Below are positions 2,345-26,817 of a stretch of 29,557 nt of DNA, in pieces. Source of the stretch: a virus; IMG/VR virus record IMGVR_UViG_3300027974_000118, positions 1 to 29,557 of that record; one strand, written 5' to 3'. Every line of letters begins with the position of its first letter. Position 1 is the first letter of the stretch. Made by a program: the position numbers and the translations under genes. The notes under the pieces were generated by a model, which did no database searches, had not been told where the DNA came from, and was given only the letters and a program-made list of their open reading frames with translations.

Positions 2345-3226
2345 TTAGGTTGATGCAAGGGATGGTTTTGGGTTATTCTTTTTATGCTTTTCGTCTAATA
2401 TCATCGGGGTGGTATTCTGCCATCTTATAGAATGATGTATTCTAGGATTGCTCGATCTCATCATAGAGATTTTAACGCTTGATGGTTGCATCATTACGGT
2501 TGTAAATGCCTTGCAATATGTTCCATAGCGTAAATACATATCAGTAATTCCACTTTTTTGACTTTGAGTAGCGGTTTGCGTTAAAGATACGAACGGTATG
2601 GTTAAAAATATACCCCCTCTACTGCCGAGTGTAGTGTAAGTATTAACATCCTCGTTCATAGCCCCTACAAATTGAAACGGCCGACTCGTTGAACACATAA
2701 ATGAGTTCATACACTTTCGTTTGCTAAATCTGTATATGTCTTTGCCATTGAATAGGCCGCCTATAAAATCCCCGCCCTGCGAAAAGGCTATGCTTCTGAA
2801 GTCGCAAGACTTGTAATATGTAAGCATATTTTGCAAATACTTGTTTAGGTTTTTTATATATCCCGGCATAACTCTTTCATTTATGAAAAGCCTATAATCA
2901 AAAGAGGTGTAATCATCGTCTAGTTGCACAAAGTATTCTATACCGATCTCTTTTGCTATTTGAAAGCAAGCGTTCCTAGCGTGTGTTATTGTTCTTCGTT
3001 CATCAAAGTTGTTGCCCTCGTCTACGCTATCTGCAATTTCCTTTTTATTAAAAACCTTAACATTCTCTTTTCCGTATCGAATGATATATTTTTCAAGGGT
3101 CTTGTCCTCATTATCTACGATGAAATATATTTTACCGGTATATCCGCACTTCTTCAGCGTTGCCAATGTCTTTATGTTGTCTGGTCTGCCGTGAGTTAGT
3201 ATAAAAATAGCAAAATCAGCTTCCAT
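2345..3226 (-). CDS. TET-associated (GREB1-like) glycosyltransferase, putative DNA base glycosylation
   Basis: From the ATG at 3226 the product is 293 aa; an upstream in-frame start at 3265 would give 306 aa but overlaps the previous gene by 50 bases, so I prefer 3226 (11-base overlap). It has a GT-A fold: 'FILTHGRPDN' at 8-17, 'FIVDNED' at 35-41, 'RNACFQIAKE' at 84-93 and the metal-binding 'QLDDDY' at 101-106. The pattern matches TET-associated glycosyltransferases related to the GREB1 C-terminal domain, which in phages are linked to glycosylation of hydroxymethylated pyrimidines in DNA. The substrate here is inferred. The gene and its two upstream neighbours are clearly more AT-rich than the rest, suggesting acquisition as a cassette. 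Confidence 0.75.
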   Translation of the reverse strand: MEADFAIFILTHGRPDNIKTLATLKKCGYTGKIYFIVDNEDKTLEKYIIRYGKENVKVFNKKEIADSVDEGNNFDERRTITHARNACFQIAKEIGIEYFVQLDDDYTSFDYRLFINERVMPGYIKNLNKYLQNMLTYYKSCDFRSIAFSQGGDFIGGLFNGKDIYRFSKRKCMNSFMCSTSRPFQFVGAMNEDVNTYTTLGSRGGIFLTIPFVSLTQTATQSQKSGITDMYLRYGTYCKAFTTVMMQPSSVKISMMRSSNPRIHHSIRWQNTTPMILDEKHKKNNPKPSLAST

Positions 3227-3626
3227 CTGTGTATTCTTCCATATATTGAGCCTTAATCTCTTCACATAGTTTCACATATCCGCTCTCTATGGCTTTCTTG
3301 AAATCTATAATCACAAGTGCAGACTTCTCCATAAGCCCCTGCATTGTTTCTGATGAGTGAGCGTAGTAGTCAGCTATCTTTTCGTAGTTAAATACATTGT
3401 GTCTTTTTGCGGCCTCAATCAAAAATGCTTTTTCTTCTTCTGTTACTTCTGAATCGCTAATCTCCCTAATAAGTTGCTTTGTTTTCGTGTTCTCCAATAG
3501 CTCCATAATGTGAGGCTTTTTATTTTTAGGCTCATATATCGGGGCTTCAATCTTTGATGAGTATTTGTTGTCCTCTTCAACATCGCTCCCGAACATATTG
3601 GCTTGCTTCAGTATGCTTTCACTCAT
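3216..3626 (-). CDS. Hypothetical protein linked to the glycosyltransferase
   Basis: The product is 136 aa. The first 40 residues look disordered and acidic; the rest is helical, with a central 'HNVFNYEKIADYYAHSS' and 'LMEKSALVIIDFKKAIESGYVKL'. The second half looks strongly conserved in style, reminiscent of a phage protein encoded beside DNA-modification genes, but I cannot name its activity. It overlaps the glycosyltransferase gene by 11 bases and the upstream gene by four, so the three are probably co-translated. A partner or accessory role in DNA modification is inference. Confidence 0.78.
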   Translation of the reverse strand: MSESILKQANMFGSDVEEDNKYSSKIEAPIYEPKNKKPHIMELLENTKTKQLIREISDSEVTEEEKAFLIEAAKRHNVFNYEKIADYYAHSSETMQGLMEKSALVIIDFKKAIESGYVKLCEEIKAQYMEEYTDGS

Positions 3627-5774: not shown

Positions 5775-5986
5775 TTGGGTGCTTTCGGCCAACTTGCCCA
5801 AAGCCGAACATCATTTTCAGAATGCCCCCAGCTTCGAGACACAAACGAGCCATCGACATAACGACCGACACAAACCTCACCGCCAATATCCATAAGCACT
5901 TTTTCATCGTTCTTGGGTTTCTCCTCTATTGTTTTCCATTGAATCATTGACCATTTGAGCTTTGGAACATCGACATCAATGCTCAT
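5768..5986 (-). CDS. DUF551-like small protein
   Basis: The product is 72 aa, with 'WKTIEEKPKNDEKVLMDIGGEVCVGRYVDG' and a Trp-rich end (LWASWPKAPKW). The sequence W-x-T/S-I-x-x-x-P-x-x-x-x-x-VL is the hallmark of the small DUF551 phage/prophage proteins of unknown function. It overlaps upstream by four bases and downstream by seven. Confidence 0.75.
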   Translation of the reverse strand: MSIDVDVPKLKWSMIQWKTIEEKPKNDEKVLMDIGGEVCVGRYVDGSFVSRSWGHSENDVRLWASWPKAPKW

Positions 5987-15322: not shown

Positions 15323-16624
15323 TTATTTTACCACAGTTCCAGATTGCATAAGTTCAACTAATTTCTTGATGGCTTGTAAAGTTTCATTGCTTAAACTGCT
15401 TTTTTCTTCGCCTAGCTTGCCTTGTGTGCCAGTCATACTTGCCTTGCCAAATGCCCTATCTTTTTCAAACTTACTTGCGGCGGCCTCCCTTGCAAGTTGA
15501 GATGGGTCAACGCCAGTCAATCCCCCTTGGATTTTCTCCCCCAACGATGGCATTTCCCCTGCGGCTTGTTGGGCGGCCAGCTTCTCTCTTTCTCTCTGAG
15601 TTGGGGCAATTCTTTCCGCAACCTTAAAGTTTTCTGATTTAAGCTGTCTTTCCCTTTGTTTCCTAGCCACATCAAGGGCTTGTTGCCCACCCCTACTTGC
15701 ACCGAGAACTCCACCCCCAGCCTCTTGAGCTATTTTTGCATTTTCAGCCTTTTTCTTTTGAGACGCTTGTTCAAGTGATAATCTTTTTTGAGCTACTTCT
15801 AGGTCTTTTTCTCTGCCTTTTCTTGTAAGATCATCAATGAGTTTTATATTTACGCCGACATTCTTTAACTCATATAATTGCTCTATCTGCTGATTTATTA
15901 AATCAAGCTGATATTGTGCTAATTGTAATTCTGCCTTTGCATCGGTAACAAAATCTGCTTGTGTTTTATTTCTTATTGCATTTAATTGACGAAGTATTCT
16001 ATTGGATTTAACAGTTCTCTCTGTATTTTCTGCCTCTTCCTTGCCCTGCTTTGTTATCCTTTCTTCTTCTTTTCTTGTTGCAAGTAATTGCATTTCTGCA
16101 TCTAAAAGTGCTTGCGTATCTTTTAGTGTTTTCTCTGTGCTGGATACGCCGAGATCAAGATTAAATAATTTTTCAATCCCCTTCATTATTCCAGCCATAG
16201 GGCCGAGTTGAGTTATTTTACCCCTCAACGACTCAATGGTTGATTCTGTTCTTTCTAGTGCCGCTTGTGCTTGGTCAACGCTAGTGCTTTTGAATGATGT
16301 TTCAAAGGCATCAGCCAAATCCTTTTGTGCCGAGTAATAGTCAGTTGAGGCTTGCTTGACTGTTTCCCCAAATTTATTCATCGCACCAAGTGCGGCGTAT
16401 CCAAAGATTCCTCCAGTTCCAAGTCTAGCCAACATACCAAGGGATGTTCCAGCCTTACCTGCATTTAACCCAAGGCTAACAAGTGTCTTGCCTAGCTTTT
16501 GGGCAGATACATCAGATTGCTTAAATGTGTTTGCCGTCTTTGTAGCCTCTTTCTGGACTCCCCGCAAGCCAGTCGTGGCTTTGCGTCCGTCAATCTCGAT
16601 CTCTCCTTTTAATACAAAAGCCAT
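15323..16624 (-). CDS. Tape measure protein (short)
   Basis: The product is 433 aa. It begins with a beta segment (VLKGEIEIDGRKATTGL), continues with a Gly/Ala-rich hydrophobic stretch (LGMLARLGTGGIFGYAALGA at about 62-81) and then a long coiled-coil region (about 115-310, rich in Lys, Glu and Gln). This is the usual arrangement of tape measure proteins, which set tail length and hold the tail tube lumen. At roughly 1.5 angstrom per residue the tail would be about 65 nm, short for a siphovirus. Position after the G/GT chaperone locus and before the distal tail gene agrees. Confidence 0.82.
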   Translation of the reverse strand: MAFVLKGEIEIDGRKATTGLRGVQKEATKTANTFKQSDVSAQKLGKTLVSLGLNAGKAGTSLGMLARLGTGGIFGYAALGAMNKFGETVKQASTDYYSAQKDLADAFETSFKSTSVDQAQAALERTESTIESLRGKITQLGPMAGIMKGIEKLFNLDLGVSSTEKTLKDTQALLDAEMQLLATRKEEERITKQGKEEAENTERTVKSNRILRQLNAIRNKTQADFVTDAKAELQLAQYQLDLINQQIEQLYELKNVGVNIKLIDDLTRKGREKDLEVAQKRLSLEQASQKKKAENAKIAQEAGGGVLGASRGGQQALDVARKQRERQLKSENFKVAERIAPTQREREKLAAQQAAGEMPSLGEKIQGGLTGVDPSQLAREAAASKFEKDRAFGKASMTGTQGKLGEEKSSLSNETLQAIKKLVELMQSGTVVK

Positions 16625-16629
16625 ATATG

Positions 16630-17406
16630 TTACCTTGTCCTATTGGCCTTGTCAGCAATCTCTTGTTGCTTTTCTGAAATCTTTATCTTCATATCTGCCT
16701 CTTCTGCATTTATCGCATTTTGTAAAGCACGAGGCCCGATCTTTGCTACCCCAGCCGCCGCATTAACAAACACAGCCTTAACGACATCCCCAGCCGCAAA
16801 AACATTGTCAATTCCATATCCCAATCCAGCACTCCCCTTTAATGCTCTAAAGAACTTCAATAGAACATTGTCTGGTTGAATTGTTTTCCCAATGGTTTTC
16901 CTGCTAAAATGATAGAATGGGGGCAACCATCCAGCGGCAATGTATCCAGCAGACGACCTAGCTCGTTTAACAAACTTATTATAAAACTGGCTTGCTGTTC
17001 CTCCCTTTTTACCCTTACCCGGCCCAGCTAGTTTGGCTGGGAACTTGTTGTAGAATCCCAATCTTTTGCCTCTTGCCAGTCTCCAATTTGCAATCTTAAA
17101 AGCCTCTTGGCTTCCCATATAATTAACAGTTGCTTGTTTCTGGGTTGTCTTTCCACCCTTGCTCAACGCAACATATTCCCCCCTCTTCTTTGTTGTTTTA
17201 ACATAAGAAGCGGTAACAGTTTCAACTGCCTTCATATCATCAGAAATCTTTTCTGGGTCTGCTTTATCTGTCAGCTTGCTTGCTCTTGCACAAATATTTG
17301 CCGCCCTTCGATTTAGTTCATTAATTCTGTCTCGACGTGTTAGGTCTAGGTATAGGTCAATTGTCCTATTAAATTCTCTAACATCTAGTCTAATTAGATT
17401 GCCCAT
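16630..17406 (-). CDS. Basic tail-region protein of unknown function
   Basis: The product is 258 aa, strongly basic (for example 'AKLAGPGKGKKGGTASQFYNKF'), with a helical N-terminus (FNRTIDLYLDLTRRDRINEL) and a helical C-terminus. It is placed between the chaperone locus and the tape measure gene, where many siphophages have no extra gene. It may be a minor tail protein or a tape-measure partner. The start is preceded by a TTAACACAAAG leader element overlapping the stop of the GT extension. Confidence 0.72.
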   Translation of the reverse strand: MGNLIRLDVREFNRTIDLYLDLTRRDRINELNRRAANICARASKLTDKADPEKISDDMKAVETVTASYVKTTKKRGEYVALSKGGKTTQKQATVNYMGSQEAFKIANWRLARGKRLGFYNKFPAKLAGPGKGKKGGTASQFYNKFVKRARSSAGYIAAGWLPPFYHFSRKTIGKTIQPDNVLLKFFRALKGSAGLGYGIDNVFAAGDVVKAVFVNAAAGVAKIGPRALQNAINAEEADMKIKISEKQQEIADKANRTR

Positions 17407-17422: not shown

Positions 17423-18009
17423 TTAAACTATCCCCAATAGCTTCTCTAGGTTTGCCCTATCTTCGCCAATCTCTGTAAGCACTCGCCGACACTTTACCCC
17501 GTTTTGCCATAGGTAGGTATGGGTTGCTTGAGTGATTATGGCTAAAGGAATGTTCCATAAAATATAGTCTATGCTCCAACCAGTTCGTTCTGCCAACGAA
17601 AACACAAAACTTGCTGTTCCCGCTGGCGTTAGGCGTTTCCCAAGTCGGGCTGATGAGGGGCTGGGATAACATCAACTTTCCCCTTCTGGGCTTCATCCAA
17701 GATATTAGAAACGACGGTTGTGGCAATTTCACGATCTGCCTCCGTCTTCCCCTCGATATATTCCATTATCTTTTCCCTAAACAAGCTCTTATTCCAAGCC
17801 AGTTTGATTGCGTCCTTCTTGTTCTTGGCTAATAGGATGTGGACATAGATAAACGACCAAATGAAATAGATTGAGGAATCTTCATCGTCCCTTACTTGCA
17901 AAAGGAGCAACCTTGAGCCTTCCGTGTATGGTGCGAGTTTATCACCCATAAACTCCTTTTCTGGTGAGATGAATGCCGAGTTTAGTTCTTCTTCTAGGGA
18001 TATGCTCAT
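17423..18009 (-). CDS. Tail assembly chaperone GT fusion by -1 frameshift
   Basis: Predicted join of 18009-17635 with 17635-17423 after a -1 slip at GGGAAAC. The product would be 195 aa: 125 residues of the short chaperone, then 70 residues starting RLTPAGTASF and ending 'DRANLEKLLGIV'. In lambda, gpG and the gpG-T fusion made by slippage on GGGAAAG guide the tape measure protein during tail assembly. Here the second frame has no good start of its own (only a GTG at 17605), and position just before the tape-measure block fits. The heptamer is in the correct zero-frame register (G GGA AAC), three codons before the stop. Confidence 0.75.
17592..17641 (-). promoter_or_regulatory. Programmed -1 frameshift signal: GGGAAAC plus downstream stem
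   Basis: The slippery heptamer G GGA AAC is at 17641-17635 in the mRNA sense. Seven nucleotides later a 7-bp stem can form: GCCAGCG (17627-17621) with CGTTGGC (17598-17592), including one G-U pair and a 22-nt loop. A spacer of about seven nucleotides is typical of recoding stimulators. The zero-frame stop TAA is at 17631-17629. Confidence 0.75.
17629..18009 (-). CDS. Tail assembly chaperone, short form (gpG-like)
   Basis: The product is 126 aa, acidic and helical, starting MSISLEEELNSAFISPEK. It is encoded between the tail-tube candidate and the tape-measure region and contains the slippery site near its 3' end, the hallmarks of a lambda gpG-type chaperone. Sequence similarity to gpG cannot be judged by eye, so the call depends on gene order and the frameshift signal. 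It overlaps the upstream gene by four bases. Confidence 0.78.
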   Translation of the reverse strand: MSISLEEELNSAFISPEKEFMGDKLAPYTEGSRLLLLQVRDDEDSSIYFIWSFIYVHILLAKNKKDAIKLAWNKSLFREKIMEYIEGKTEADREIATTVVSNILDEAQKGKVDVIPAPHQPDLGNA

Positions 18010-18380
18010 AGATGCTTTAGGATTGCCCTTCTTTGCTCTGAGGTTGCGTTTTCTGATATGAGTAAAGTCTGACCGCCCCTTTGTATCACCCGAACCGGAA
18101 CGGCTCTTTTAAGCAATCCTAAGAAGGTTTCTCGGTTCTCTAGGGCGGCACGGACATATCGGATTGGGCTTTCTGGGTCGCTCTTCATTTCTGACCAAGG
18201 GCGTTCCATTTCTGCCCTAGCCTCTGCCCCTGCCCCAGCCTCAAACCAGAAGGTAGCTTGGGTGCTTCCGTCCTCTTTGATTGTCCTTGTTACTGGGTCT
18301 AGCTGTCTTGGCTTTGCTCCAAAGGAAGCGACTGCACTAGCTACCTTGATATTCGTTGTTCCCCAAAAAGCCTCGGTCAT
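18006..18380 (-). CDS. Hypothetical tail-assembly region protein
   Basis: The product is 124 aa, with 'EDGSTQATFWFEAGAGAEA' followed by a charged helical half (EARAEMERPWSEMKSDPESP) and 'ENRETFLGLLKRAVPVRVIQ'. It lies between the tail-tube candidate and the short chaperone and overlaps the latter by four bases. No family is recognised; a tail accessory role is inferred from position. The start is preceded by GAAATCCTAAACTT rather than a classic ribosome binding site. Confidence 0.68.
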   Translation of the reverse strand: MTEAFWGTTNIKVASAVASFGAKPRQLDPVTRTIKEDGSTQATFWFEAGAGAEARAEMERPWSEMKSDPESPIRYVRAALENRETFLGLLKRAVPVRVIQRGGQTLLISENATSEQRRAILKHL

Positions 18381-18417: not shown

Positions 18418-18765
18418 TTAACTTACATTCGGATAGCCAGTAGCCGAGATGTCGAGCGTCACAAACGCATCGTTAGACTTGTTCAGCGTGATGGAGTCGA
18501 TGCGGGTAGTTCCAAGAGTGGTTGCATTCGCCAAGGCCGCAAGAGCCGCCCCTGCGGTTACATTGTAAGCACCAGTAATGGCAACCGAGAGCGAGTAGGA
18601 GGTTGTGGCGTTGTAATATCCAACGGCAACAATATCGCCAGAGTTATTGCGAACTTCATTCTTCTCTACATTGCGAGCCTCTGAAAAGCTCTGAACCAGT
18701 CCGATGCCAGCTTCCGCAACCAAGCCGAAAGACAAGCCCTGCGTGCCAATAGTAACAGCGGCCAT
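18418..18765 (-). CDS. Putative major tail tube protein
   Basis: The product is 115 aa and beta-rich, with 'FSEARNVEKNEVRNNSGDIV' then 'GYYNATTSYSLSVAITG' and 'ITLNKSNDAFVTLDISATGYP'. This reads like the compact tail-tube proteins of small siphophages: an E-R-N-V/K-N-E segment, alternate beta strands and a conserved end. Position directly upstream of the chaperone locus agrees. Translation is apparently coupled to an 11-codon leader ORF by TAATG, and a stem-loop follows the stop, which would fit a highly expressed gene. A related minor tail protein is the main alternative. Confidence 0.6.
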   Translation of the reverse strand: MAAVTIGTQGLSFGLVAEAGIGLVQSFSEARNVEKNEVRNNSGDIVAVGYYNATTSYSLSVAITGAYNVTAGAALAALANATTLGTTRIDSITLNKSNDAFVTLDISATGYPNVS

Positions 18766-20386: not shown

Positions 20387-20878
20387 TTAAATGACTGCCA
20401 CATACATAGAGTTTCGCTTTTCGTGAAAGTCCAAGAATCTAAGGCCGTCGTCTAGCTCTGATGGTGTGCAAATAAGGCTCATCTTTAACCCTCTTTGCCA
20501 AGCCCTTTTAGCGGTTCGTATGGTTGGAGTCTGACCAGTAATCCGTGCCGTATAGACTTTTGTATCAAAAATTTTGCTTTGAATCTTTGTGAAAAGGGGA
20601 GGGGTTTCAGAATAGAACGACTCAAAGATTGAGCAATATTTTGCGTCAAAATTGGCTTGGCTAATCTTGGCCGCTGTATCGGAGTAGTCCATTGTAACGG
20701 AAACTTCATAAACCCCGGTATAGTTACCAAGAACTTGCCCCCCAACCGATGCAGAGATTGTTGCAAATGGAAATAGCTTTGCCCCAACTCTATTAGTCTT
20801 ATAGACATTGAGGCCAGAGATTGATGTGAGAAGGCCAGCAATAGCATCCTCCACATTGATTTGAACGCTGTTATTCAT
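20387..20878 (-). CDS. Tail-terminator-like / tail completion protein
   Basis: The product is 163 aa. Its first 130 residues are clearly related to residues 1-135 of the upstream LamG protein: shared features include V-E-x-A near the start, 'SGLNVYKTNR' versus 'TGVNFFTSER', 'NYTGVYEVSVTMDY' versus 'PFSGVFKTPTTITY', 'ANFDAKYCSIFESFY' versus 'ADFDAKFYDILEQLY', and 'ITGQTPTIRTAKRAW' versus 'VTGDTPTVISQNRTW'. Size and place after the connector gene suit a tail terminator or head-tail completion protein. One base separates it from the LamG gene. Confidence 0.65.
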   Translation of the reverse strand: MNNSVQINVEDAIAGLLTSISGLNVYKTNRVGAKLFPFATISASVGGQVLGNYTGVYEVSVTMDYSDTAAKISQANFDAKYCSIFESFYSETPPLFTKIQSKIFDTKVYTARITGQTPTIRTAKRAWQRGLKMSLICTPSELDDGLRFLDFHEKRNSMYVAVI

Positions 20879-22792
20879 TTAATAAATAGCATATTTAGTG
20901 TTTAGATACGCCTCTACTTGCTGGCGTTCTTGGGTGGTTACAGCACGATTATACATTATTATCTCAGCTATTTGTCCATTGAATAGCTCGCCACCGGGAT
21001 TATTAAACGACTTATTGTATCCACCAATTTGAAGTGAGCCACTTGTTATGTCGATGTTCCCCACTTGGTCATTATAGGTAGCTGTCTGGATTCCGTTTAC
21101 ATATATATTAAAGTCAGTTCCATTAAATGTAAAATCCATTACTCTCGCAACTCCGTCATCAATATCAACCCCCGAGTTTCTGTCATAATATCCTCCATTA
21201 GCAATGTCGAAACTGCTGTTTCCACCACCTAGTTTAGCCGTTTGCCAATATGCACCAGAATCCTCTAAAGCGTTTGCATTTTTCATGAATGTAATTTCGT
21301 TCCCAGTTCCATCACCAGTCCTCTTCAAAACTATAAAGATTGATGTATTGATAAAATCAAGACTACTTGAATCTGGTATAATAAGTAATTGGCTTGTTCC
21401 ATTAAATTGAATGGATGGCTTGCTATTGCTAAAAGATGATACAAATGTTGGTTCTTCTCCAGAGTTTTCTACGCTTGCATTATTTCCATTTCCACTCTGA
21501 TCTGACCAGCTGGTTACATTGTTTGTATTTGCTGTTGCGGTTGTAACACTTCCAGTAATTGAACCAGATGGGACTGATGAGCTTGTGCTTATGGCTGATC
21601 CTATTGATCTTGGTGAATTGGTTAATATTCCAGTTGGTGCTGGGCTTGGGCCAGAACTTTGCGCCCATTCAATTAAATTACTGCTTGAGTATGAGTTTGA
21701 CCAATCTTCATTTGTTACAAAGAAATCTCCGTCAAAATAAATGTATCCACCATTAGAATGCGTCCAGCTATTTACAACAAAATTCTCTGTTGCATCATAG
21801 CTCCCATTGATTGAGCTTGCGTTTGTTGCCCCAGACAAAGTAACCCTGCTAATATAGGTAGCTGGAGTCCATGCCCCAGAATAATTGGCGGGTGCTGTTG
21901 CAATTATAATGTTGTCAGCTATTGAGTAGAGATTTATGCCGTTAATATAAAAAGCTCCACCGACCCTCTCAAAATAGTTTCCATCTCCATTGTATGTTCC
22001 ATTCGCCCCAGAGTAGATGCCAGTAAATCCACTTATGAAAATCTGAGTATATGAATTAGATGCAGACCAGTTAACACCATTACCAGAAGCAAATCCTCCA
22101 GCATCTCCGCTTCCATTTTCAAATAGATAATATACTTCATCCGATGGATTCCATTGCATCGTCTTTCCAGAAGGGCCAGAGAACATATATGAGTCAACCC
22201 ATTCTTGTCGGTCATTCCCATATCCCGGAACTCCTATTGCTGTATATGTTCCAACAAAACTTGGATTGCTTGTTCCGCTAATTATAATTTGTGATGCATA
22301 GTTGTAGGACAATTTGCTTACGCCAGCATCGGCTTTGAGCCACAATGATAATCCGGATATATTTAGTGGAGAGAATATCTTTGCCGCCGTTGCCGTGATG
22401 TCTAAAGTCATTGCCCTAGACCAAGTGCGGTTTTGGCTTATAACGGTAGGGGTATCCCCAGTCACCTTTGCAACATAGAAAGTTATGTTTGAGTTTGTTG
22501 TGAGGTAGCTTGCTAGGTCTGGGTCACGATAGAGTTGCTCTAGGATGTCATAAAACTTAGCATCAAAATCTGCCCTTGCGGTTGTATCTGCCCTAGCAAC
22601 ATAAGTAATTGTGGTTGGTGTTTTGAACACGCCAGAAAAAGGCACAAGTTCCTCTGACCCAATCTGGGCTTGAACCGTGACACTTGGCATCGTCCTAGCC
22701 GTGCCTCTTTCACTCGTAAAGAAGTTCACCCCAGTAACACCAGAAACAACATTAAGGAGGGCGTTCTCAACCTCCCTCTCTATTGAGGCCAT
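20879..22792 (-). CDS. Tail-terminator-like domain fused to a LamG domain with repeat insertion
   Basis: The product is 637 aa. Residues 1-135 are a paralogue of the downstream 163-aa tail-terminator-like protein. A LamG (concanavalin-like) domain starts with 'ISGLSLWLKADAGV' at 145-158 and resumes with 'VTSWSDQSGNGNNA' at 426-439, continuing to 'RAVTTQERQQVEAYL' near the end. The stretch between (about 163-420) is an insertion of three related units of about 70-80 residues, each with an 'ISG/LSG...NGTY' start, a W/Y-rich core ('MQWNPSDEVYYLFENG', 'FYINGINLYSIADN', 'GYIYFDGDFFVTNEDW') and a Gly/Ser linker. This suggests a glycan-binding virion protein. It shares one base with the upstream gene (TAATG). 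Confidence 0.75.
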   Translation of the reverse strand: MASIEREVENALLNVVSGVTGVNFFTSERGTARTMPSVTVQAQIGSEELVPFSGVFKTPTTITYVARADTTARADFDAKFYDILEQLYRDPDLASYLTTNSNITFYVAKVTGDTPTVISQNRTWSRAMTLDITATAAKIFSPLNISGLSLWLKADAGVSKLSYNYASQIIISGTSNPSFVGTYTAIGVPGYGNDRQEWVDSYMFSGPSGKTMQWNPSDEVYYLFENGSGDAGGFASGNGVNWSASNSYTQIFISGFTGIYSGANGTYNGDGNYFERVGGAFYINGINLYSIADNIIIATAPANYSGAWTPATYISRVTLSGATNASSINGSYDATENFVVNSWTHSNGGYIYFDGDFFVTNEDWSNSYSSSNLIEWAQSSGPSPAPTGILTNSPRSIGSAISTSSSVPSGSITGSVTTATANTNNVTSWSDQSGNGNNASVENSGEEPTFVSSFSNSKPSIQFNGTSQLLIIPDSSSLDFINTSIFIVLKRTGDGTGNEITFMKNANALEDSGAYWQTAKLGGGNSSFDIANGGYYDRNSGVDIDDGVARVMDFTFNGTDFNIYVNGIQTATYNDQVGNIDITSGSLQIGGYNKSFNNPGGELFNGQIAEIIMYNRAVTTQERQQVEAYLNTKYAIY

Positions 22793-25164: not shown

Positions 25165-26817
25165 TTAAGCCCAGTTGCTTGCCTTGCGTTTTTCATAGAT
25201 AGCTTTTCCTTTTTCGTAAAACTCTGGCTTGTTGTGATTCTTCAACTGCTCGTCTGGTTGCCCACCATTAAACATAGGGTTATCGTGCTTGAACTTGATA
25301 TGTCTAGCCTCAACTACGGCTTGTTCTGCATAGGCTCTGTCCGTGAACTCATTGTCCGAATATATGCCATCCGACTCTTGGTAGTCTGGATGGAATAGAT
25401 GCCTCTGCTTCTTTAGCCTAGATTGCGTTAAAATCGCCATACATAGGAGTTTATCTTGCCGTAGCCCATCTGATACTGCCAGCACTTTCTCTGCCTTTGT
25501 GTCCCCAATAGCGGTTGAAATTAGGGCATCCCAATGGCGAGGGGGTGTCCAATCATCGCTCATTTGAACGATAATATCCCCCTTGGCTATTTTTGCCCCT
25601 GCGTTCCAAGCGTTAATCATCCCACCGGGATTACACCTAATGGCTTGGTGGGGAGTGTAGTCGATGGGGTCGTTATGATCTACCATAAAAAGCCACTCAA
25701 TTTCTAGTGGATTATGGGCTAAAGAAAGCCACATCCATCGCCTCTGCCAAGCGATCTGTGGTCTGCCTCGGGTGGCGTGGATAATACTGATCTTGGGGGC
25801 GGGTCGCATCTTCCTAATCTTTTCAGCTTCGCTAGTCTCGCCTACGCACACCGAGGCAGTTTCGTATAAATCCATCGCTTGCCAGTTGTAAATGGCCTCC
25901 ACAAGATTCCAGTAGTGGGCTTTTGGGCGATGCAAGGCCATACAAGCTCGAATTGCTCCATAAGCTTTAATCCAGTTTCCCTTGCCCGACCAATGATTTG
26001 CTATGTAGAAATAAGCCTCTCGTCTGTCTGGTTGCAGAGCTATGGCTTGCCCAAGGTAAGAAAGCCTCTCGTTTTCTGGAACAATCCTCCCCAAGTTACA
26101 AAGCACATCGTAGCGAAGCGTGTCCTCTAGGTCTGGGAAAGACAATGCTCGCATACTGGAATCAATGCACTTTTCGTGTTGATTAGATAAAAAGTATTCT
26201 TGAGCTTGGTAGTAGAGAGAGTTTGCGGCTGGAGCAAGGGTATCGGCCAAGATGTTAAAGTTCCTTTCAGCACTTCCCGGTTTGTATCCGTGAGGCTTGT
26301 GGATGCGGAAAATCTTGTCCACACCAATCGTCTTGTTTGGCTCTTTGCAAACCAGCATTTCGTGGACTCGGTTCTTCCAACTGCAAGTTCCTTTCTTTGA
26401 GATTTCTTCTCGGAGGGGGATGAGTCCGGCGTTGTCCACATTGTACTTTAACGCCACTAGGTGAGCGTCTTTTTGAATTGCAAGGTCAATGGCCTCCTCG
26501 ACAACCTTCACCCCATCCTCGGCCATTACATCGTCAGCATCTACCCACAAACACCACTCATTTGAACAAGCGTCAAGAGCCGTGTTCCTAGCCGTAGCAA
26601 AATCGTCTATGTGCTTCCAATCAGTTCTTTTATTCTGATAATGAACGATCTTTGCCCCAAGCCCACTCGCAATTTCTTCGGTCTTATCGGGCGTAGCTGA
26701 CCCCCTAGAAATACATACAACAATTTCTTTTGCGATAGGGGCAAACGACTTGAGACAACGCTCAATGTATTCTTCTTCATTACCAGCGATGAGATAGACT
26801 GAAATAGGATGCTTCAC
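25165..26817 (-). CDS. Bifunctional glycosyltransferase: GT2, TPR-like middle, second GT-A
   Basis: The product is 550 aa from a GTG at 26817. Residues 1-190 are a GT2 domain: 'ISVYLIAGNEEEYIERC' at 5-21, 'ARNTALDAC' and 'WVDADD' at 91-96. Residues about 195-330 are helical and TPR-like (AQEYFLSNQHEKCIDSSMRA and following). Residues about 342-550 are a second GT-A-like domain starting 'ISIIHATRGRP' with 'VQMSDDWTPP' at 417-426 as the metal site and a late 'DNEFTDRAY'. Two catalytic sites suggest the addition of two sugars. It is first of four glycan-enzyme genes in a virion operon, so virion glycosylation or host surface alteration are the options. Confidence 0.82.
   Translation of the reverse strand: MKHPISVYLIAGNEEEYIERCLKSFAPIAKEIVVCISRGSATPDKTEEIASGLGAKIVHYQNKRTDWKHIDDFATARNTALDACSNEWCLWVDADDVMAEDGVKVVEEAIDLAIQKDAHLVALKYNVDNAGLIPLREEISKKGTCSWKNRVHEMLVCKEPNKTIGVDKIFRIHKPHGYKPGSAERNFNILADTLAPAANSLYYQAQEYFLSNQHEKCIDSSMRALSFPDLEDTLRYDVLCNLGRIVPENERLSYLGQAIALQPDRREAYFYIANHWSGKGNWIKAYGAIRACMALHRPKAHYWNLVEAIYNWQAMDLYETASVCVGETSEAEKIRKMRPAPKISIIHATRGRPQIAWQRRWMWLSLAHNPLEIEWLFMVDHNDPIDYTPHQAIRCNPGGMINAWNAGAKIAKGDIIVQMSDDWTPPRHWDALISTAIGDTKAEKVLAVSDGLRQDKLLCMAILTQSRLKKQRHLFHPDYQESDGIYSDNEFTDRAYAEQAVVEARHIKFKHDNPMFNGGQPDEQLKNHNKPEFYEKGKAIYEKRKASNWA

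Follow-up and report, generated by a model that had tools for sequence, protein, structure and literature searches.

The slippery site of bacteriophage lambda is GGGAAAG. In this phage, gpG and gpGT are made at about 30:1 and bind the tape-measure protein, and the T part recruits the tube protein (PMC5009743). GGGAAAC has likewise been connected with such loci: a shift on this heptamer directly before the stop was predicted for gp18/gp19 of Burkholderia phage KL1, where a gene also intervenes ahead of the tape measure (PMC3483164), the same heptamer was predicted in Caulobacter phage Colossus (PMC3556154), and haloarchaeal HCTV-1 provides a published GGGAAAC precedent (PMC5009743).

The locus described here is carried on the minus strand of a viral sequence of 29,557 nucleotides (IMG/VR record IMGVR_UViG_3300027974_000118), the whole of which is referred to as the window. 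It is considered, with a probability of about 94%, to be the tail-assembly chaperone locus of a long-tailed phage in which a -1 slip joins a short protein, G, to an extension, T. As in lambda, a short G is followed by a -1 extension near the end of G, the XXXYYYZ heptamer opens with GGGAAA, and the locus lies upstream of the tape measure; unlike in lambda, the heptamer ends in C and not G, a strong conserved hairpin lies 7 nt downstream, the proteins belong to no curated chaperone family, and one gene separates T from the tape measure. The signal had been called lambda-type in an original prediction made from the sequence alone, and this name proved apt for the arrangement, which is borne out by heptamer, covariation, selection and synteny, but neither the sequence family nor the exact signal fits it, given the lack of a Pfam chaperone match, the GGGAAAC heptamer and the one intervening gene. 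KL1 likewise has GGGAAAC just ahead of the stop as well as an intervening gene, and relatives of the L084 type even share GGGAAACTGA with it. However, the KL1 shift was predicted in one phage, whereas for the clade of the window both conservation and covariation are demonstrated; GT matched no phage record. The elements of the locus are as follows.

Positions 17629 to 18009, minus strand: G-type 0-frame ORF, a putative short tail-assembly chaperone of 126 aa, with its ATG at 18009.
Positions 17635 to 17641, minus strand: slippery heptamer GGGAAAC in the register G GGA AAC, in register in 84/84 related contigs.
Positions 17629 to 17631, minus strand: 0-frame stop TAA, with one codon (GCC) between it and the heptamer.
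Positions 17423 to 17635, minus strand: T-type -1-frame extension, 70 codons and a stop, recognised by dN/dS in the -1 frame and a match to phrog_11996.
Positions 17592 to 17627, minus strand: putative stimulatory hairpin of 13 bp with a 10-nt loop (5' arm 17627 to 17615, 3' arm 17604 to 17592), indicated by energy and covariation.

Reading of the minus strand agreed with the earlier claim that GGGAAAC is in the 0-frame register just before the stop of the 126-aa ORF. The -1 frame is open from the CGC at 17635 to the stop at 17425 to 17423, i.e. for 70 codons, and had been described as lacking a good start of its own; indeed, no ATG, GTG or TTG occurs between its preceding stop and the heptamer, and its earliest start codon is the GTG at 17605. 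The predicted slip product, GT, has 195 aa with the junction LGN-RLTPAG, and both anticipated lengths (126 and 195 aa) as well as the junction were reproduced from the sequence. Most ribosomes would produce the 126-aa G protein only, and a minority would slip back one base at G GGA AAC (GGA to GGG, AAC to AAA), with the strong hairpin seven bases downstream, and would translate 70 further codons to give the 195-aa GT. By analogy with lambda, G would coat the tape-measure protein and the T extension would recruit tail-tube subunits, the G:GT ratio set by the slip helping tail assembly. Frameshifting itself probably takes place, and we infer its occurrence and rate, together with the roles of G and T, from the evidence given below.

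The heptamer alone is weak evidence because 4 of the 49 genes of the window, inspected as a check on chance, have an in-register XXXYYYZ (Y = A or T) within their last 20 codons. As in-register heptamers are not rare in the window, relatives were needed, and these were obtained from IMG/VR searches with G and T and alignments of both; one relative, L024, was left out as its contig stops short of the site. In the first set, all 57 contigs had exactly one site, with the heptamer in register (GGGAAAC in 49, CCCAAAC in 5, and GGGAAAA, GGGAAAT and GGGAAAG in 1 each), the stop 0 or 1 codon further on, and the -1 frame open to the same point except where the contig ends. A second set, found after the pattern was fixed, comprised 27 new contigs with the site, and the heptamer was found in 27/27 (GGGAAAC 25, CCCAAAC 1, GGGAAAA 1), the remaining heptamers listed for these later contigs being additional chance hits that were not counted as sites. 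An in-register heptamer 0–1 codons ahead of the stop was thereby present in 84/84 related IMG/VR contigs reaching the site (GGGAAAC 74, CCCAAAC 6, other GGGAAAN 4), a conservation far beyond chance. All of the variants (CCCAAAC, GGGAAAA, GGGAAAT and GGGAAAG) preserve X XXY YYZ, and the 0-frame stop is TAA, TAG or TGA, its place 0–1 codons past the heptamer being constant. Identity to the GT protein of the window falls to about 54–55% across the relatives. Loss of the heptamer in close relatives keeping both frames had been named as evidence that would speak against the signal; no loss was found in the 84 contigs, down to ~55% identity. The slip signal is real and deeply conserved.

A second in-register heptamer of the window, CCCAAAA (2363–2380, in the gene at 2345–3265), stands six codons ahead of the stop, and the -1 frame stays open there for 113 codons. 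It was judged to be due to chance, as the downstream gene starts at an ATG of its own and several relatives of that gene have lost the heptamer. The product of the gene at 2345–3265 is a TET-associated glycosyltransferase (Pfam TAGT 2.3e-31, phrog_842), which suggests that the phage DNA contains glycosylated modified bases. The 637-aa gene at 20879–22792 has a first ~138 aa common to all relatives compared; for its remainder, which contains a Laminin-G-like domain, L016 alone gave a match. Its neighbour at 20387–20878 has a similar start and is possibly its paralogue. The segment 23126–26817, between the capsid and tail genes, includes a family 2 glycosyltransferase gene (25165–26817) and three unmatched genes.

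The neighbourhood of the locus was then read from the following genes.

Positions 18418 to 18765, minus strand: candidate major tail (tube) protein, 115 aa, by position and conservation.
Positions 18006 to 18380, minus strand: conserved 124-aa gene directly upstream of G, overlapping the start of G by 4 bases, with 62–98% identity in all relatives compared.
Positions 16630 to 17406, minus strand: conserved gene of 258 aa that separates T from the tape measure, a putative tail protein by position, at the same place in relatives (239–287 aa).
Positions 15323 to 16624, minus strand: tape-measure protein, 433 aa, identified by profile alignment to its counterpart in relative L028.

Where examined, the order is fixed, i.e. 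tube candidate, 124-aa gene, G, T, 240–290-aa gene, tape measure and 213-aa gene, which places the chaperone locus two genes upstream of the tape measure with one gene intervening. The gene of L028 two genes past T matches five tape-measure PHROGs (best E=7e-13), and the family of the 433-aa gene of the window aligned with the profile built on this gene at 97% hhalign probability over 203 columns. Direct BLAST of the tape-measure candidate of the window against that of L028 gave nothing, and only profiles linked the two. This gene (window 15323–16624) varies far more among relatives (36–88% identity, or no match) than the nearby chaperone and tube genes. The 115-aa gene is a candidate major tail protein by its position only; its AlphaFold model was weak and the structural matches of that model were meaningless.

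A Pfam scan of 8 GT proteins with E up to 1 disclosed no chaperone family, searches of cultured phage records with GT and with G gave no match, and a GTDB genome search for a host found none. The T domain matched phrog_11996 in 7/8 members, that of the window aligning at profile positions 145–169 of 208, and G had no family match; in Pfam, nothing matched either G or GT. The structure model of G was modest (pLDDT 64), its best structural Z (3.4) being to unrelated chains, and Foldseek and VIA-align searches with this model gave no convincing solved relative and matched no solved chaperone. The best viral model was that of an uncharacterized phage protein (TM 0.63, E 0.03).

A related arrangement occurs in Bacteroides phages, where PHROGs 14983 and 11996 resemble G and T. 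This pair is like the window in its T domain with the TGW-DYI-W motif in the -1 frame, which stands directly ahead of the tape measure, but differs in the slip sequence (AAGGGGAG), in a G that has no sequence relation to that of the window, and in the hairpin, for which the model gave no hit in the Bacteroides-type loci. In Bacteroides phage jmh47_hp the order is a gene noted as major tail protein, a hypothetical gene at the place of G, the T domain and the tape-measure gene. L123 has a corresponding -1-frame segment that matches phrog_11996 at 3.9e-26, and directly behind it comes a 1279-aa protein matching a tape-measure family at 1.2e-59. The Bacteroides-type loci (L105–L111, L113–L116, L120, L123 and L124) have the T domain in the -1 frame past a conserved AAGGGGAGTTAA or AAGGGGAGTTAG-like stretch, and the site, near 5954 in most loci, reads ..AAG GGG AGT TAA in the 0-frame; these loci have another slip sequence, with slippage probably on GGGG. 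A related T motif was also seen in L104, L112, L117, L118, L119 and L121, in which an in-register T run (GATTTTTT) ~20–37 codons ahead of the G stop is possibly yet another slip site.

The failure of G to match known chaperones in sequence or fold would suit a locus in which the frameshifting is real and the proteins are not tail chaperones but, for example, another structural pair. This is quite improbable, in view of the position of the locus just ahead of the tape measure in the relatives examined and of the T-domain family directly ahead of annotated tape-measure genes in Bacteroides phages. The tail-chaperone reading of the locus is well supported.

It is still less probable that T is a separate small protein, made from the internal GTG at 17605 or by reinitiation past the G stop, with the heptamer being incidental. 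The ORF list does give a 60-aa ORF at this -1-frame GTG, and a phage record annotates the Bacteroides-type relatives of G and T as separate hypothetical proteins. However, many relatives have GTC, GTA or GTT in place of the GTG, which is located at the hairpin edge and lacks a clear ribosome-binding site, whereas the residues ahead of it (RLTPAGTASF) show conservation, P, G and A being invariant. A separate T would also leave the conserved heptamer unexplained.

A 7-bp stem starting seven bases after the heptamer had been proposed. Its start, exactly seven bases past the heptamer, and its first 7 bp (17627 to 17621 with 17598 to 17592, including one G-U) were recovered, but not its length, as the stem has 13 bp. 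Folding of the window sequence gave the 13 outer pairs at -19.8 kcal/mol (z -2.4), and with more downstream sequence z was -3.1, with 0/200 shuffles as stable. Over 27 distinct sequences, 91.5% of the cells of the 13-bp stem were paired, compared with 30–54% when the partner was slid by 1–3 bases. Both sides had changed in 5 pairs, amounting to 25 cells, where shuffles averaged 7.5 (0/500 as high), and RNAalifold, unprompted, predicted a nearly identical stem. The 7-nt spacer between heptamer and hairpin and the loop length are invariant across relatives; the lower 7 stem positions form at least 6 pairs in each sequence, and the upper six are looser and broken in several relatives. With a covariance model of the element, a single site in the window scored strongly, at 76.5 bits (the next best scoring 8.6), and an Rfam search at the hairpin gave no family. 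The hairpin overlaps coding sequence and part of its conservation could stem from the protein, but some covarying pairs combine a replacement site in one arm with a silent site in the opposite one (e.g. columns 19 and 46 of the alignment), a pattern that would not readily arise from protein constraint alone. The proposal that, in this clade of uncultivated phages, the conserved covarying hairpin compensates for a weak bacterial slip codon (AAC), the G:GT ratio being set by RNA structure and not by the heptamer alone, is a reasonable one, evenly balanced between being right and wrong.

A fusion protein would also result from a frame change in transcription, by polymerase slippage, instead of on the ribosome. 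Such slippage normally requires a long A or T run. The runs at the site are of only three bases, the CCCAAAC variant keeps tRNA re-pairing without a longer A/T run, and a covarying hairpin at ribosome spacing fits translation, all of which renders a transcriptional origin scarcely credible beside slippage on the ribosome.

The dN/dS of the T region was 0.06–0.29 in the -1 frame, compared with 0.65–1.03 when the same DNA was taken in the 0-frame, and that of G was 0.03–0.16 where unsaturated. Purifying selection acts on the -1 frame, and indeed on both frames. In metagenome contigs errors of one base are frequent, and such an error would leave the two frames in this relation, but a split arising from sequencing or assembly error, or from decay of a single gene, is to be excluded because the relatives carry the same break, the stop falling 0–1 codons past the heptamer in 84 contigs that come from many samples, and because selection is purifying in both frames.

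The mechanism is a textbook one, and the arrangement is known from lambda and many tailed phages; what is new is its members in a family of uncultivated phages. The 84 contigs and the window offer naturally varied -1 sites followed at a fixed distance by a covarying hairpin, and are suited to tests of the influence of structure and of the last heptamer base on the slip rate. They also point to a likely function for otherwise unannotated proteins, among them PHROG families 11996 and 14983 of Bacteroides phages.
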